NCBI RefSeq assembly: GCF_021033825.1 | Contig: NZ_JAIFXZ010000002.1 | Coordinates: forward strand, 310,001-374,000 | Reading direction: 5' to 3' | From: Dietzia aurantiaca | GTDB taxonomy: Bacteria > Actinomycetota > Actinomycetes > Mycobacteriales > Mycobacteriaceae | Length of the DNA: 64,000 bases | In this document: in pieces, positions 56,326 through 64,000 of the stretch | How positions within the stretch are numbered: the first letter of the stretch is position 1 | How the letters are laid out: each line of letters opens with the position of its first letter | Program-made: the position numbers and the translations under genes | Notes under the pieces: generated by a model | Seen by the model: only the letters and a program-made list of their open reading frames with translations | What the model was told of the DNA's origin: nothing | The model's database searches: none

Positions 56326-58689
56326 ATGAGCATCCACACCGCAGACAGCCACGACATCATCCGCGTCCTCGGTGCGCGGGAGAACAATCTCAGGTCGGTT
56401 GATGTCGAGCTGCCCAAGCGGCGCCTGACCGTGTTCACCGGCGTGTCCGGCTCCGGGAAGAGCTCGCTGGTGTTCGCCACCATCGCGGCCGAGTCCCAGC
56501 GGATGATCAACGAGACCTACAGCGCCTTCCTCCAGGGCTTCATGCCGACGCTCGCCCGGCCCGACGTGGACGTCCTCGAGGGGTTGACCACGGCGATCGT
56601 CGTGGACCAGGAGCGGATGGGGTCCGACCCCAGGTCGACCGTGGGGACCGCCACGGACACGGGCGCGATGCTGCGGATCCTCTTCAGCCGCCTGGCCGAG
56701 CCCCACCTGGGCGGGCCCAAGGCGTACTCGTTCAACGTGGCGTCGGCCACCGGCTCGGGGGTGCTCAAGAAGGCCGACGGGACGCGGGAGAAGGCGGAGT
56801 TCTCGATCACCGGTGGTATGTGCGTGCGCTGTGAGGGCCGGGGCAGCGTGTCCGACTTCGACATCGACGCCCTGGTGGACCGATCCAAGTCGCTCGCCGA
56901 GGGCGCGATCACCGTGCCGGGGTACTCGATGGACGGCTGGTACGGCCGCATCTATGCCGGCTCCGGATACTTCGATATGGACAAACCGGTGAAGGACTTC
57001 TCGGACGAGGAGATGCACCGTCTCCTGCGGCTCGAGCCCACCAGGATCAAGGCCGAAGGCATCAACGTGACCTTCGAGGGGCTGATCCCCAAGATCCAGA
57101 AGTCGATGCTCGCCAAGGACGTCGAGGCGATGCAGCCCCACATCCGCGCCTTCGTCGAGCGCGCGGTCGTGTTCACCACCTGCCCGGATTGCGGCGGCAC
57201 CCGCCTCAACGAGGGCGCCCGGTCCTCGCGCATCGGCGCGATGAACATCGCCGACGTCTCGTCGATGCAGATCACCGACCTCGCGGAGTGGCTGCGAGGC
57301 CTGGACGAGCCGTCGGTCGCCCCGCTGCTGAAGTCGTTGCAGCACACGCTCGACTCGTTCGTCGAGATCGGTCTCGGCTACCTCTCGTTGGACCGGCCGG
57401 CGGGGTCGCTCTCGGGTGGCGAGGCGCAGCGGGTCAAGATGATCCGCCACCTCGGGTCGGCCCTCACCGACGTCACCTACGTCTTCGACGAGCCGACGAT
57501 CGGCCTGCACCCGCACGACATCCAGCGGATGAACAACCTGTTGCTGCGGCTGCGGGACAAGGGCAACACGCTCCTGGTGGTGGAGCACAAGCCGGAGACC
57601 ATCGCGATCGCGGACCACGTGGTGGACCTCGGACCCGGCGCCGGCTCCGAGGGTGGTGAGATCTGCTTCGAGGGCTCCGTCGAAGGACTGCGCGCGAGCG
57701 AGACCGTCACCGGTCGGCACCTCGACGACCGCGCGAGGCTCAAGGACGCCGTGCGCCCGGCCTCCGGTGTGCTGGAGGTGCGGGGCGCAACCGCGCACAA
57801 CGTCCGCGGGGTGGACGTGGACATCCCGCTCGGCGTGCTGTGCGTGGTGACGGGAGTCGCGGGGTCGGGCAAGAGTTCGTTGATCCACGGCTCGGTCTCG
57901 CCCCGCGACGGGGTGGTGGCGATCGACCAGACAGCGATCCGCGGATCCCGCCGGAGCAACCCCGCCACCTACACCGGGCTGCTCGAGCCGATCCGCAAGG
58001 CCTTCGCCAAAGCCAACGGCGTCAAACCCGCCCTGTTCAGCCCCAACTCGGACGGCGCGTGTCCCACCTGCAAGGGCGCCGGGGTGGTCTATTCAGATCT
58101 CGGGATGATGGCGGGTGTCGCTACCACGTGCGAGGACTGCGAGGGAAAACGCTTCCAGTCGGAGGTGCTGGACTACGAGTTCGGTGGAAGGAATATCGCC
58201 GACGTCCTGGGGATGTCGGTGGCCACCGCCGAGGAGTTCTTCGGGCAGGGGGAGGGGCGCATCCCGGCCGCCCACAAGATCCTCGTCCGGCTGCGCGATG
58301 TGGGGCTGGGGTACGTGACGATCGGCCAGCCCCTCACGACACTGTCCGGCGGCGAGCGGCAGCGGCTCAAGCTGGCCGCCCAGATGGCGGACAAGGCCGA
58401 GGTGTACGTCCTCGACGAGCCCACCACAGGTCTGCACCTCGCCGACGTACAGAACTTGTTGGGGATGCTCGACCGGCTGGTCGATTCGGGCAAGTCCGTG
58501 ATCGTGATCGAGCACCACCAGGCCGTGATGGCGCACGCGGACTGGATCATCGATCTCGGTCCCGGTGCCGGCCACGACGGCGGGCGCGTCGTGTTCGAGG
58601 GGACACCCACCGAACTCATCACCGACCCCTCGACCGTGACCGGCGAGCACCTGGCCGAATACGTGGGGAAGGCGCCGTCGCGGTCCTAA
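56326..58689 (+). CDS. UvrA-like ABC ATPase, short class (UvrA2/DrrC type)
   Basis: A 787-residue UvrA paralogue with two ABC modules. Walker A motifs are VFTGVSGSGKSSLVFATIAAESQ and VVTGVAGSGKSSLIHGS; signatures are LSGGEAQRVKMIRHLGSALTDVTYVFDEP and LSGGERQRLKLAAQMADKAEVYVLDEP; zinc modules are GGMCVRCEGRG, TCPDCGG and ACPTCKG. Canonical UvrA is about 950 residues; this form is shorter, consistent with the class lacking the UvrB-binding domain and often linked to resistance to DNA-targeting drugs. Its role in repair or drug tolerance is inferred. ATG 56326 has GAGGAG upstream. Confidence 0.9.
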   Translation: MSIHTADSHDIIRVLGARENNLRSVDVELPKRRLTVFTGVSGSGKSSLVFATIAAESQRMINETYSAFLQGFMPTLARPDVDVLEGLTTAIVVDQERMGSDPRSTVGTATDTGAMLRILFSRLAEPHLGGPKAYSFNVASATGSGVLKKADGTREKAEFSITGGMCVRCEGRGSVSDFDIDALVDRSKSLAEGAITVPGYSMDGWYGRIYAGSGYFDMDKPVKDFSDEEMHRLLRLEPTRIKAEGINVTFEGLIPKIQKSMLAKDVEAMQPHIRAFVERAVVFTTCPDCGGTRLNEGARSSRIGAMNIADVSSMQITDLAEWLRGLDEPSVAPLLKSLQHTLDSFVEIGLGYLSLDRPAGSLSGGEAQRVKMIRHLGSALTDVTYVFDEPTIGLHPHDIQRMNNLLLRLRDKGNTLLVVEHKPETIAIADHVVDLGPGAGSEGGEICFEGSVEGLRASETVTGRHLDDRARLKDAVRPASGVLEVRGATAHNVRGVDVDIPLGVLCVVTGVAGSGKSSLIHGSVSPRDGVVAIDQTAIRGSRRSNPATYTGLLEPIRKAFAKANGVKPALFSPNSDGACPTCKGAGVVYSDLGMMAGVATTCEDCEGKRFQSEVLDYEFGGRNIADVLGMSVATAEEFFGQGEGRIPAAHKILVRLRDVGLGYVTIGQPLTTLSGGERQRLKLAAQMADKAEVYVLDEPTTGLHLADVQNLLGMLDRLVDSGKSVIVIEHHQAVMAHADWIIDLGPGAGHDGGRVVFEGTPTELITDPSTVTGEHLAEYVGKAPSRS

Positions 58690-60518: not shown

Positions 60519-60734
60519 TCAGCCCACCTTCCCGAAGCGCTTGTGCAGCGCTTGCTTGCTCACGCCCAGCACGAGTCCGATCTCCGCCCAGCTCATCCCA
60601 TGAATACGGGCGTGACGGACGGCTGCCGCCTCCTCACGGGCGAGATCTGCCTTGGCTCCCGCGATCGCGGCCAGTCGGGCGACCGGCCCGCCCTCGTCGT
60701 CGTCGTATCCCAGTGCGGTTTCCACCGTAACCAC
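60519..60734 (-). CDS. Small helix-turn-helix protein upstream of the FUSC gene
   Basis: A 71-residue protein ending in a clear HTH (REEAAAVRHARIHGMSWAEIGLVLGVSKQALHKRFGKVG). The recognition helix SKQALHKRF resembles sigma-region-4 or RpiR/HTH_23-type readers. GTG 60734 gives 71 residues; GTG 60725 gives 68. Longer in-frame TTG starts would begin inside the -35/-10 promoter region (60745-60773) and are rejected. The start sits just downstream of a large inverted repeat, so it may autoregulate and control the FUSC gene; this is inferred. Confidence 0.7.
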   Translation of the reverse strand: MVTVETALGYDDDEGGPVARLAAIAGAKADLAREEAAAVRHARIHGMSWAEIGLVLGVSKQALHKRFGKVG

Positions 60735-60738
60735 CCCC

Positions 60739-60787
60739 GACGTCAATCTACGTTGACCCCACCCTCTCGTCAACGTTCATTGACGTC
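60739..60787. promoter_or_regulatory. Palindromic operator over the HTH-gene promoter
   Basis: GACGTCAATCTACGTTGAC (60739-60757) and GTCAACGTTCATTGACGTC (60769-60787) are inverted copies, 17 of 19 positions matching, 11 bases apart. Each arm contains its own GTCAA-N6-TTGAC palindrome (60742-60757 and 60769-60784). The minus-strand promoter TTGACG (60768-60773) -N17- TAGATT (60745-60750) lies inside it, and the divergent PPOX gene starts 55 bases away. It should be the binding site of a dimeric regulator. Confidence 0.7.
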
Positions 60788-60828
60788 GCGTTCCGTCTCG
60801 GGGCTGCCGAGACCGGTGCCGACGCCGT

Positions 60829-60834
60829 TAGTGT
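60829..60834 (+). promoter_or_regulatory. -10 element of the PPOX gene
   Basis: TAGTGT lies 7 bases before ATG 60842. It is divergent from the HTH promoter, and its upstream flank abuts the palindrome at 60739-60787. Confidence 0.45.
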
Positions 60835-60841
60835 CGACGCC

Positions 60842-61459
60842 ATGACCGCCAACCGTTATCCGGAGATCGCATTCGGCCCCGCCGCACGCGCGAGGCAGGA
60901 CGCCGTGGGCGTCAACCGACCCGAGCAGACCGGCGAGTTCGCGCTCGAGGGCACGGACATCGCCCAGATCAGGCGGGCGGACCACTTCTTCCTGTCCACG
61001 GTCACCGAAACGGGGTGGCCCTATGTGCAACATCGCGGCGGGCCCGCGGGATTCGTCCATGTCGACGGTGACACCACGCTGTCCTGGGTGGAGTTCCGCG
61101 GCAACCAGCAGTACGTGTCCACCGGCGACATCGACTCCGACGGGCGGGTGTGCCTGTTCTTCATCGACTACCCCACGCGCAGCCGGCTCAAGGTGTTCGG
61201 GCACGCACGGATCGTTGAGCCGGAGCAGGATCCCGCGCTGATCGAGCGACTGCGCACGATGGGGGAGAAGACCTACACCGGCCACGTGGAGCGGGCGATC
61301 ATCGTGGAACTCGTTGCCTCGGACGCCAATTGCAGCAAGCACATCACGCCACGGTGGGATCGCGAGTACATCGACAGACTCACCGGCCTGTACCAGCGTG
61401 ATATCGATGAACTACAGGCGCGGGTTGATGAGCTCCGTCGACACGGGCGCGCCGACTGA
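60842..61459 (+). CDS. Pyridoxamine 5'-phosphate oxidase-family flavoprotein
   Basis: A 205-residue FMN/F420-binding split-barrel protein. The N-terminal QIRRADHFFLSTVTETGWPYVQHRGGPAGFVHVDGDTTLSWVEFRGNQQYVSTGDIDSDGRVCLFFIDYPTRSRLKVFGHARIV block is the PPOX core. A C-terminal helical region (ITPRWDREYIDRLTGLYQRDIDELQARVDEL) follows, with SNCSKHITPRW as a typical ending. The substrate is unknown. It is divergent from the HTH-FUSC operon across the palindrome, so it may share regulation with it. Confidence 0.83.
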   Translation: MTANRYPEIAFGPAARARQDAVGVNRPEQTGEFALEGTDIAQIRRADHFFLSTVTETGWPYVQHRGGPAGFVHVDGDTTLSWVEFRGNQQYVSTGDIDSDGRVCLFFIDYPTRSRLKVFGHARIVEPEQDPALIERLRTMGEKTYTGHVERAIIVELVASDANCSKHITPRWDREYIDRLTGLYQRDIDELQARVDELRRHGRAD

Positions 61460-61461
61460 TG

Positions 61462-61467
61462 TACGGT
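61462..61467 (+). promoter_or_regulatory. -10 element of the ABC-F leader ORF
   Basis: TACGGT lies 7 bases before ATG 61475, making the leader ORF a likely leaderless start. Confidence 0.5.
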
Positions 61468-61474
61468 GTCCGAC

Positions 61475-61519
61475 ATGTATCCCGGTGCGTACTCCCTGAA
61501 GCCCTGGTCCCGCCGCTGA
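61475..61519 (+). CDS. Leader peptide of the ABC-F gene (14 codons)
   Basis: ATG to TGA encodes MYPGAYSLKPWSRR. It starts 7 bases after a -10 hexamer and ends inside the loop of the hairpin at 61502-61530. Leader peptides of this length precede antibiotic-resistance ABC-F and erm genes, where drug-stalled ribosomes change downstream folding. That role is inferred here from position, hairpin layout and the downstream gene; the short length alone would not prove coding. Confidence 0.55.
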   Translation: MYPGAYSLKPWSRR

Positions 61520-61625
61520 CGGCGGCAGGGTCCACACTTCACCTCTGATCTCTGCACGCCGTCGACGGCCCACCGGCCGGGCGGCGCATTCGTGCTGTCC
61601 GGCTCCGCGACGAACTCTGCAGAGA
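61502..61625 (+). promoter_or_regulatory. Putative translational attenuator before the ABC-F gene
   Basis: Hairpin one (61502-61530): CCCTG pairs with CAGGG and CCGCCG with CGGCGG, a 3-base bulge on the left, with the leader stop codon in its loop. Further downstream TCTCTGCA (61549-61556) is perfectly complementary to TGCAGAGA (61618-61625), which contains the ABC-F Shine-Dalgarno region. A palindrome CTCTGCAGAG (61615-61624) competes with that pairing. Ribosome stalling in the leader ORF could therefore free the ABC-F start; the mechanism is inferred. Confidence 0.5.
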
Positions 61626-61630
61626 GCTCC

Positions 61631-63250
61631 ATGCCTGACACACCGAACAATCATCTTCCCGCGGGCACCCGCGCCCACCTCCGTCTGACCGGCGCCTCAG
61701 TGGCCCTGGGGGGCCGGCCCGTCCTCACCGGGGTCGATGTGACCCTGTCCGCCGGCACCGCACTGGCGGTGGTGGGGGAGAACGGGCGGGGCAAGACCAC
61801 CCTGCTCGAGGTTCTGGCGGGAGCCCGGTGCCCCGATGCCGGCACCATCACACGCCGCGGGAGCGTCGGCACCGTGGAACAGCATCTCGACATCTCCGAG
61901 GGCCGCACCGTCGGAGATGCCGTGGACCTGGAGATCGCCGACAGCATCAACGCTCTCCAGGCGTTGGACAGTGCCACCACCGCGATGGTCGAAGGACGGC
62001 CCGGCGCCGACGACGCGTACGCATCCGCGCTGGACCGCGCCATACTGCTGGACGCATGGGACGCCGACCGCCGCGTGGACGTGGCACTGGAGGGACTGTC
62101 CGCCTGCACGGATCGGACACGGCCGCTGTCATCGCTGTCGGTGGGGCAGCGGTACCGGGTGCGACTGGCATGCGTCCTCGGCGCCCGACACGACATACTC
62201 CTGCTGGACGAGCCCACCAACCACCTCGACGCGTCCGGGCTGGCGTTCCTGATGGAACGACTGCGGGAACACCCCGGCGCGCTTGGCCTGGCCAGCCACG
62301 ACAGGGCCCTGTTGCGCGACGTCGCGACCCACTTTCTGGACCTGGACCCGAGCCAGGATGGCGTACCGCGACTCTACGGGGGCGGTTATGAGGGCTGGAT
62401 CGAAGGCCGACGCCGAGAGAGAGTGCGATGGGAACAGACTCACGCGGCACAGGTGGACGAGCACGACCGACTCAGTCGTGCGGCAGAAGACGCGCGTGGG
62501 AGACTCCACGATTCGTGGCGTCCCGCCAAGGGGCACGGTCGGCACGAGAGGGCGACACGGGCCGCCGGTGCCGTGCAGGCGTTCAACCGGCGACGTGAGG
62601 CACTGGATCGCCACCGGGTGACCGTGCCACCGCCGCCCGCGCGGTTCCTGTGGCCGGAATGGTCGGTGCCCGCCGGACGTGCCGTGCTCACCTGCGTCGA
62701 GCCGCGGGTCACCGGCCGACTCACCGCCGCGGTGTCCCTGTCGATCGATACCGGCGACCGAATACTGCTGACCGGCCCGAACGGCGTGGGGAAATCCACC
62801 CTGCTGGATCTGCTGACCGGAGAGATCGAACCCGACTCAGGCCGAGTGGATCGACGCCCGGACGCCCGGGTGTCGCTCCTCAGCCAGGAGGTGCCGGGGT
62901 GGGATCCGCACCGGACCGGGGTGGAGATCTATCGCGACCACGTGGACCGGCTCGGAGCGACGTCCGCGCCCGGCCTGGTGACCACCGGACTACTCGGCTC
63001 CGACACGGTGGGGACCCCCGTGTCGCGCATGTCGCAGGGACAACAGCGGCGGCTCCACCTGGCACTGTGCCTCGCGGAGAAACCAGATCTGCTGATACTC
63101 GACGAGCCGACCAATCATCTGTCATTCTCCCTGGTCGACGCCCTCACGGCCGCCCTGAGGACTGCGTCGTGTGCCGTCGCCGTAGCCACTCACGACCGGC
63201 AACTGCTTCGCGATCTCAGCGATTGGCCAACGCTCGTGATACGGAGGTAG
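61631..63250 (+). CDS. ABC-F family ATPase, ribosome-protection type
   Basis: Soluble twin-ABC protein of 539 residues with no membrane domain, an ABC-F member; these rescue ribosomes from antibiotics or tune translation. ABC1 has [56 protein letters not shown]2 has [53 protein letters not shown]. The linker between them (about 245-320) is rich in Arg and Asp and lacks a long P-site loop. ATG 61631 follows AGAGAGCTCC; an upstream GTG 61592 is inside the attenuator. Macrolide/lincosamide resistance by analogy with TlrC/OleB-like proteins is a guess. Confidence 0.88.
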
Positions 63251-63253
63251 CGC

Positions 63254-63259
63254 TAGGGT
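63254..63259 (+). promoter_or_regulatory. -10 element of the GyrI-like gene
   Basis: TAGGGT lies 6 bases before ATG 63266. Confidence 0.45.
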
Positions 63260-63265
63260 CGGTGT

Positions 63266-63919
63266 ATGTCAGGTGACCCCGGGGCCGCGAGTCGGCTCAC
63301 CGCGAACTACGACGTCAAGAAGAACCGTCGGGACCTGTACAGCGGACGAGCGGGCAGGTTCGATGTGGTGGACGTACCCGAGATGAGTTTCCTCATGGCG
63401 GACGGCCACGGCGATCCGAACCTCGCAGACGACTATCGCCGTGCCGTCGAGGCCTTGTATACAACGGCCTATGCGATCCGGGCGGCAGCACGGTCCCGGT
63501 TAGGACGAGTGCACACCGTAGGACCACTCGAGGGCCTCTGGTACGCGGACGATCTCAGTGTGTTCACCGCACGGGACAAAGGCGCATGGCACTGGACCAT
63601 GATGATCTGGCAGCCCGAGTGGATCACCCCGGATGTGGCAGCGTCTGCGTTGGACACGGTGGGTACGAAGAAGATCCCGGGTGTCAAGGATCTCGTACGG
63701 TACGCGACCCTCGTTGAGGGGCCAGCGGTCCAGACGCTCCATGTGGGCCCCTACGACGCCGAGGGCCCGACCATCGCGCGGATACACGATGAGGTCCTGC
63801 CGGGACACGGCATGGTCGCCGCCGGACGTCATCACGAGATCTATCTGTCCGACCCGCGGAAGACACCACCGGATCGCCTTCGCACCATCCTCCGCCAGCC
63901 CGCCAAACCGTCACAGTGA
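63266..63919 (+). CDS. GyrI-like small-molecule-binding domain protein
   Basis: A 217-residue stand-alone GyrI-like/SOUL-related protein. The pattern GRFDVVDVPEMSFLMADGHGDPN at the start, WHWTMMIWQPEWITPDV in the middle and VQTLHVGPYDAEGPTIARIHDEVLPGHGMVAAGRHHEIYLSDPRKTPPDRLRTILRQP at the end is typical of bacterial GyrI-like proteins that bind cationic or xenobiotic ligands. The substrate is unknown. It follows the ABC-F gene by 15 bases with its own leaderless promoter, so the two may form a small drug-response unit. The last 81 bases of the window after it show nothing recognisable. Confidence 0.8.
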   Translation: MSGDPGAASRLTANYDVKKNRRDLYSGRAGRFDVVDVPEMSFLMADGHGDPNLADDYRRAVEALYTTAYAIRAAARSRLGRVHTVGPLEGLWYADDLSVFTARDKGAWHWTMMIWQPEWITPDVAASALDTVGTKKIPGVKDLVRYATLVEGPAVQTLHVGPYDAEGPTIARIHDEVLPGHGMVAAGRHHEIYLSDPRKTPPDRLRTILRQPAKPSQ

Positions 63920-64000
63920 CGTTTCTAGGACGGCCAAGGGACCAGACGTTACAACCCGGGGAACCGTGGGCAATTCGCCACCACCGAACCCGACAGCCGG

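Follow-up and report, generated by a model that had tools for sequence, protein, structure and literature searches.

The window analysed here, i.e. a stretch of 64,000 nucleotides from Dietzia aurantiaca (host assembly 3.77 Mb in 37 contigs), carries near its end a gene for an ABC-F ATPase of 539 amino acids (61631-63250, plus strand, start codon ATG at 61631), in which two stretches matched Pfam ABC_tran. The best matches of the protein were the NCBIfam families NF000171 (TlrC/CarA/OleB/SrmB; 310.2 bits, below the curated cut-off of 800) and NF000355 (ribosomal protection-like ABC-F; 303.6 bits, below the curated cut-off of 380). PADLOC gave generic ATPase matches, and the nearest PDB chain by sequence was EttA. 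Judged from these similarities, the protein is a probable ribosome-protection factor with a putative role in resistance. A gene for a GyrI-like protein of 217 amino acids (63266-63919, plus strand; Pfam GyrI-like, 53.6 bits) starts 15 bases after the ABC-F stop codon and probably belongs to the same operon. Since it is this close, and was found beside the ABC-F gene in five of eight same-genus relatives (within a flank of 1.5 kb, or 0.86 kb for L013), it is plausible that the two genes form a small unit. Upstream, a PPOX-type flavoprotein gene (60842-61459), likewise adjacent in five of the eight relatives, ends 15 nt before the leader described below. An Rfam search returned one tRNA only.

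Between the flavoprotein and ABC-F genes lies a leader ORF of 14 codons plus TGA, MYPGAYSLKPWSRR (61475-61519, plus strand), with its ATG at 61475-61477 and its stop codon at 61517-61519. In the minimum-energy fold the stop codon is located at the apex of a hairpin spanning 61497-61541. A −10-like box, TACGGT (61462-61467, plus strand), stands 7 nt before the ATG. The initial annotation had described this −10 hexamer and a 14-codon ORF ending inside a hairpin, and all of these can be read directly from the sequence. The pattern TANNNT, 6-8 nt before the leader, recurs in other genera and families, where its middle bases vary; conservation of TA...T around a variable middle is what would be expected of a −10 element. 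Only one of the 14 leaders of 14 codons is preceded by a Shine-Dalgarno (SD)-like tetramer. In mycobacteria, according to the available text of PMC4633059, an RTG at the start of the transcript is necessary and sufficient for leaderless initiation. From the spacing of the box, the lack of an SD sequence and this mycobacterial rule, we infer that transcription begins with the A of the leader ATG, i.e. that the leader is leaderless.

Within the genus, 11 of 23 genomes, the own one among them, gave an ABC-F match at E ≤ 1e-60. Two of the 11 were set apart: the gene of L018 is incomplete, and the ABC-F of L019 is only distantly related (39 % identity) and has a leaderless-looking six-codon ORF of its own, MGSLVL. 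Conservation of the 14 codons had been proposed as a check, and the leader frame was indeed kept in all nine full-length same-genus orthologs, the own one included, with the consensus MY[PS]GA[YIL][ST][LM]KPW[SPT][RLG]R. At 1e-80, an ABC-F match was present in 57 of 301 genomes of the family. Among the matches listed, nine own-genus and 21 other family loci were examined, and L116 (at a contig edge) was left out; L116 and L018 are excluded from every leader count. A short ORF 6-8 nt after TANNNT was found at 19 of 20 non-genus family loci among the matches listed and in all 16 class-level orthologs outside the family; one further family ortholog, L205, had no such box and ORF. Altogether 44 of 46 orthologs among the matches listed, the nine of the own genus included, had the −10-like box and short ORF, so that the leaderless-looking start, called unusual in the initial annotation, is instead the rule in this ABC-F group. 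Shuffled upstream regions predict 0.3 such ORFs in nine, 1.6 in 20 and 0.6 in 16, i.e. about 2.5 for 45 orthologs, and only one of nine distant ABC-F genes had the arrangement. A strict DNA pattern for the leader recovered the own copy only among 397 genomes of the order. A scan of genome contigs yielded 80 loci, mostly distant genes, three of which (L020-L022) were examined.

As judged by reading the sequences, leaders of the KPW kind account for 20 of the 44 (own genus nine, L101-L107 and L191-L194). The other 24 short ORFs are of other types without the KPW motif, such as MHLYFL, MIQALYFH, VHLPLYL and VQYLFFL, and the MHLYFL-like short leaders may constitute a second sensor type. These other leaders (L108-L113, L115, L117-L121, L195-L204, L206 and L207) mostly have 6-8 codons and resemble MsrDL, given as MYLIFM in the available literature text.

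The RNA of the region is strongly folded: 61476-61650 has a predicted energy of −81.8 kcal/mol compared to −62.9 ± 4.2 kcal/mol in 200 dinucleotide shuffles, none of which was as low (z −4.45). An alignment of 16 ABC-F elements, spanning the leader up to the start of the gene, revealed two sets of mutually exclusive helices, formed by segments all lying on the plus strand. Segment 2, GACGGCGGC (61518-61526), overlaps the leader stop codon and pairs with segment 3, CGCCGTC (61557-61563), in the on state; segment 3 pairs instead with segment 4, GCCGGGCGGC (61576-61585), in the off state; and segment 5, TCCGGCTCC (61598-61606), is the on-state partner of segment 4. The core of segment 1 (61513-61515) pairs with 61523-61525 in the off state and is paired in all 16 elements, without variation. 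The RNAalifold helices were 61518-61524/61557-61563 for 2:3 and 61576-61581/61598-61603 for 4:5, i.e. GACGGCG with CGCCGTC and GCCGGG with TCCGGC as the common switch helices. In the 16 sequences, 99.0 % of the cells of helices 2:3 and 4:5 were paired, compared to 30-52 % when the helices were slid along the alignment, and for the off-state helices 1:2, 3:4 and 5:6 the values were 97.9 % and 29-59 %.

Compensatory changes in the stems had also been suggested as a check, and here the outcome was mixed. Of the 13 on-state pairs, a single one was changed on both sides in the alignment of 16 sequences (the 4:5 pair at columns 117:136, which is GC in 12, AU in three and GU in one), and the off-state helices showed no double changes. 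A wider alignment, A2, of 47 matches (43 distinct rows), which was fitted to the structure and includes some chance matches, had 95.0 % of its cells pairing and 19 double-change cells at five on-state pairs, compared to 4.2 after shuffling, with none of 500 shuffles as high; it had fewer pair types than the shuffles (10 vs 12.4). The energy of the segment 2-3 duplex relative to shuffles averaged z −2.25 in the 16 aligned elements. In further elements it was nearer to zero, −1.18 in nine ABC-F, −0.57 in nine Erm and −0.99 in two MFS elements, and the duplex signal is therefore weak outside the first 16.

A covariance model, R1, built only from the 16 ABC-F elements, found 46 matches in 43 of 401 genomes of the family at E ≤ 0.01; in the own genome it found a single copy. 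Downstream of the 46 matches lay 24 ABC-F genes (16 being the model's own), 19 Erm-type genes and one MFS gene, and two matches (L161 and L167) had no clear gene. In the class search 24 of 394 genomes had a single match. Besides the own copy, these matches preceded five ABC-F genes, seven Erm genes, three MFS genes and one Lnu(F)-like gene; the other seven (L178, L179, L180, L182, L186, L188 and L189) had no assignable gene. The Erm proteins of L147 and L148 (family) and of L172 and L174 (class) pass the broad NCBIfam Erm cut-off; the remaining Erm proteins were called from the N-terminus. The element of L147 precedes an Erm gene in the own genus, with the leader MLITGVGSLRLRSSR. L148 is the erm(X) element, matched by R1 with 44.7 bits and E 3.4e-8; its region is up to 100 % identical to plasmid erm(X) (15 records), and on plasmid pAP2 a 48-base ORF at erm(X) is annotated as an erythromycin resistance leader peptide. 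Related RNA also precedes Erm genes in other genera of the family (L136:406-545, L162, L163 and L166), with leaders ending in RIRRF or ERGRP; L166 has no leader by the −10 rule. The MFS and Lnu-like matches were weak (E 3.4e-6 to 0.0047; those proteins that were compared scored below the NCBIfam cut-offs) and count as no more than leads. The weak matches L164, L173, L177, L181 and L183 stand before genes for MFS efflux proteins (LmrA-like in L173) and an Lnu(F)-like nucleotidyltransferase, and L181 has no leader by the −10 rule.

Leader codons 9-11 (61499-61507, plus strand) encode Lys-Pro-Trp, a predicted macrolide arrest motif. Inverse toeprinting with erythromycin gave the arrest motifs +X(+), XP(X), +X(W) and XP(W), where the bracket denotes the A site (PMC6238534, available text), and the Lys-Pro-Trp of the own leader fits both +X(W) and XP(W). 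In the 14 aligned elements with a 14-codon leader (L101 and L105 have none and were left out of the codon table), codons 9-11 were Lys-Pro-Trp 13 times and Lys-Leu-Arg once, codon 4 was always Gly and codon 14 always Arg, while codons 3, 6, 7 and 13 varied; codon differences were mostly non-synonymous (439 vs 153, counted pairwise). The motif was then counted in the distinct leaders of model-matched elements with a nameable leader, i.e. 22 ABC-F, 15 Erm and four others, without L105; the −10 rule gave no leader for the Erm elements L166, L172 and L187. All 22 ABC-F leaders contained [KR]X[KRW] with its last residue fourth from the stop, in the form of KPW, KLR, KLW, RLR, RPR, RPW or RIW at residues six to four before the stop, compared to 3.6 expected from residue shuffling in a slightly wider window of four places. 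Of the Erm leaders, 13 had the motif at the same place or one to two codons nearer the stop (1.9 expected), and the two others read RPL, which is an XP(X) motif. None of the four other leaders (three MFS, one nucleotidyltransferase) had it. Based on the agreement of the leader with the published arrest motifs, the inducing drugs would be macrolides or ketolides.

On balance we lean towards the view that these elements belong to one family of leaderless, macrolide-reading RNA switches spread across Actinomycetes and joined to ABC-F and Erm genes and, more tentatively, to LmrA-like pumps and an Lnu(F)-like nucleotidyltransferase. The sensor (KPW, KLR, KLW, RLR, RPR, RPW, RIW or RIR) would be swapped at an almost constant position within an RNA frame that is itself retained.

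The ABC-F gene has an SD-like run, GAGAG, at 61622-61626 (plus strand). The initial annotation had pointed out an 8-base perfect complement that could mask this region, and TCTCTGCA (61549-61556, plus strand) is exactly complementary to TGCAGAGA (61618-61625), which overlaps GAGAG. A complement of at least eight bases to the SD region appeared in only five of 300 shuffles, so the own complement is rarer than chance. Among the 15 aligned relatives, all eight bases are present only in L010 and seven are kept in L011; L013 has a different 8-base complement and the other 12 have four to six bases. SD and anti-SD did not covary, 1419 of 5000 permutations being as low in a swap test. The complement was thus rejected as a general switch and is a detail of the own species and its two nearest relatives, where it probably strengthens the off state.

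The effect of a stalled ribosome was assessed by setting a ribosome on each leader codon in turn and folding the RNA downstream of it. In the 16 aligned elements SD exposure was highest (0.41-0.44) when one of codons 8-10 occupied the P site, compared to 0.19 at codon 14 and a flat level of about 0.3 in shuffles, and the mean change in SD unpaired probability was 0.209 vs 0.004 ± 0.027 in 20 shuffled sets. In 20 further elements, picked from the model matches with near-duplicates left out, stall position caused no change (0.004 vs −0.005), and SD unpaired probability was rejected as a general read-out. The energy needed to open the region from −20 to +12 around the gene start was chosen as a measure after that test had failed. 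For the own element, opening costs 16.4 kcal/mol without a ribosome and 16.6-17.2 kcal/mol with the ribosome at the stop codon, but 5.9-8.4 kcal/mol with the P site at codons 9-10 (five footprint choices). Its stall-dependent drop of 10.3 kcal/mol, from 17.2 to about 7 kcal/mol, was reached by none of 200 shuffles. The mean drop was 5.25 vs 0.07 in shuffles (sd of set means 0.38) in the 16 aligned elements and 1.95 vs 0.14 (0.48) in nine further ABC-F elements, whereas nine Erm elements (0.20 vs 0.13, 0.36) and two MFS elements (0.09 vs 0.10, 1.31) showed no opening effect. With an effect in the ABC-F sets and none in the Erm set, a translational reading is a good one for the own ABC-F gene and its relatives, and no more than a candidate for the Erm elements. 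Stalls from codon 1 onward lower the cost (11.8-11.9 kcal/mol at codon 1), and as stalls elsewhere before codon 11 do so too, the model leaves room for other drugs; start-codon-stalling drugs may be alternative inducers.

We consider it probable that the element is a leaderless, macrolide-induced translational attenuator of the ABC-F gene. The attenuator layout recognised in the initial annotation is supported by the conserved leader ORF, the arrest motif at a fixed place, the mutually exclusive helices and the predicted opening of the start region upon stalling. It is weakened by the unchanged SD exposure in the 20 further elements, the missing opening effect in Erm and MFS elements, the few double changes and the low number of pair types, the lack of SD/anti-SD covariation, the mostly non-synonymous codon differences, the sub-cut-off scores of the ABC-F protein and the 24 orthologs with other leader types. 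RNA polymerase would start at the A of the ATG at 61475 and a ribosome would initiate on the bare 5' end. Without drug, the ribosome would reach the UGA at 61517-61519 and leave, 1:2 and 3:4 would pair, and the ABC-F start region would fold closed, so that little ABC-F would be made. If a macrolide occupies the exit tunnel, the published motifs predict that the ribosome stalls once Pro10 has reached the P site, Trp11 being in the A site. The stalled ribosome would then cover segment 1 but not segment 2, 2:3 and 4:5 would form and the ABC-F start would open. The ABC-F protein, perhaps together with the GyrI-like protein, would be made and, going by its family, would protect ribosomes.

The same leader and helices could instead act through premature termination of transcription, either Rho-dependent or at a terminator without a T-run. 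The lmrC and msrD leaders act on transcription (according to the literature text available), and the Erm elements, for which no opening effect was predicted, suggest that another read-out may exist. Against this, no intrinsic terminator (a GC hairpin with a T-run) was found in 60600-64000, and the own start region opens strongly in silico when the ribosome stalls; transcriptional attenuation therefore seems unlikely. The leader need not be leaderless if it is reached by a read-through transcript from the flavoprotein gene, which ends with its stop codon at 61457-61459, 15 nt upstream of the ATG, and is a recurrent neighbour within the genus. However, L014, L016 and L017 keep the leader and the −10-like box without a flavoprotein gene in the flank, and TANNNT recurs at its fixed distance in other genera and families, which makes such read-through improbable.

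The chances are slimmer still that the leader is a small functional protein or an amino-acid attenuator. Mycobacteria commonly make small proteins from leaderless ORFs (PMC4633059, available text), but here K9-P10-W11 and R14 are conserved and codons 3, 6, 7 and 13 are free to change, and the same RNA frame has different three-residue motifs before Erm genes; as to an amino-acid attenuator, the leader contains a single Trp and no stretch of one repeated residue. That a short ORF and hairpins arose by chance in GC-rich DNA is hardly credible. At this G+C content short complements do arise often, the observed SD complement being reached by 78 or more of 300 shuffles in 11 of the 16 elements, but chance is contradicted by the conservation across genera and families and by the fold z of −4.45, and 43 of the 46 family matches of the model precede an ABC-F or Erm gene (16 being the model's own sequences).

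Compared with known systems, the preferred translational attenuator would act in the manner of the macrolide attenuators of erm and msr genes, and its RNA is related to the erm(X) leader of Corynebacterium and relatives. The latter was found by the model built from ABC-F elements, its leader MLISGTAFLRLRTNR has the motif equally far from the stop, and its segment 4-loop-5 is, by eye, near-identical to that of a same-genus ABC-F element. It differs in having a methylase downstream instead of an ABC-F gene, RLR instead of KPW as the motif and no predicted opening of the start region upon stalling. The following comparisons refer to the available text of the publications cited. ErmDL, MefAL and MsrDL are also short leader ORFs with macrolide-dependent stalling, and ErmDL and MefAL share the +X+ motif (PMC8298421, PMC10314930). 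Unlike the present leader they act in Firmicutes, msrD uses an intrinsic terminator, of which none was found here, and the available text of the same two papers makes no mention of a leaderless start for the three. The Streptomyces genes lmrC, are5sc and tiaA are actinobacterial ABC-F genes induced via uORFs, but lmrC is terminator-based, while in are5sc and tiaA the uORF is equipped with a ribosome binding site and stalling takes place at its start codon, in response to lincosamide-type drugs but not to erythromycin (PMC8546547, PMC12421871). In cplR of C. difficile, uORF stalling likewise releases the SD of an ABC-F gene; it differs in its three-codon uORF, MRI, and in also using transcription termination, so that translational and transcriptional control are combined (PMC10201436). 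Mycobacterial leaderless short ORFs resemble the leader in beginning at the first base of the transcript and lying before operons, and for the cysteine-rich ones attenuation has been proposed, responding to cysteine and not to a drug (PMC4633059).

Each of the ingredients, namely drug attenuators, the erm(X) leader and leaderless uORFs, is thus already known by itself. In the part of the open-access literature covered, mostly as titles and abstracts and with subscription papers, including older erm(X) work, lying outside it, no report was found that describes a leaderless attenuator upstream of an ABC-F gene or an RNA element common to ABC-F and Erm genes. If the interpretation is true, Actinomycetes have a drug sensor that needs no ribosome-binding site, and a common ancestral RNA underlies two routes to resistance, namely ribosome protection and rRNA methylation. 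Macrolide-inducible members of these genes would then be predictable from sequence, and the elements would offer natural one-site variants for testing the erythromycin arrest motifs found in vitro.

Two minor observations concern the surroundings of the element. A UvrA-like protein of 787 amino acids is encoded at 56326-58689, with 679/730 bits, just below the UvrA cut-off. GTCAA...TTGAC palindromes are repeated at 60738-60786, near a divergent small ORF (60519-60773, minus strand), and are perhaps an operator; similar palindrome motifs stand upstream of the leader in L014, L016 and L017.
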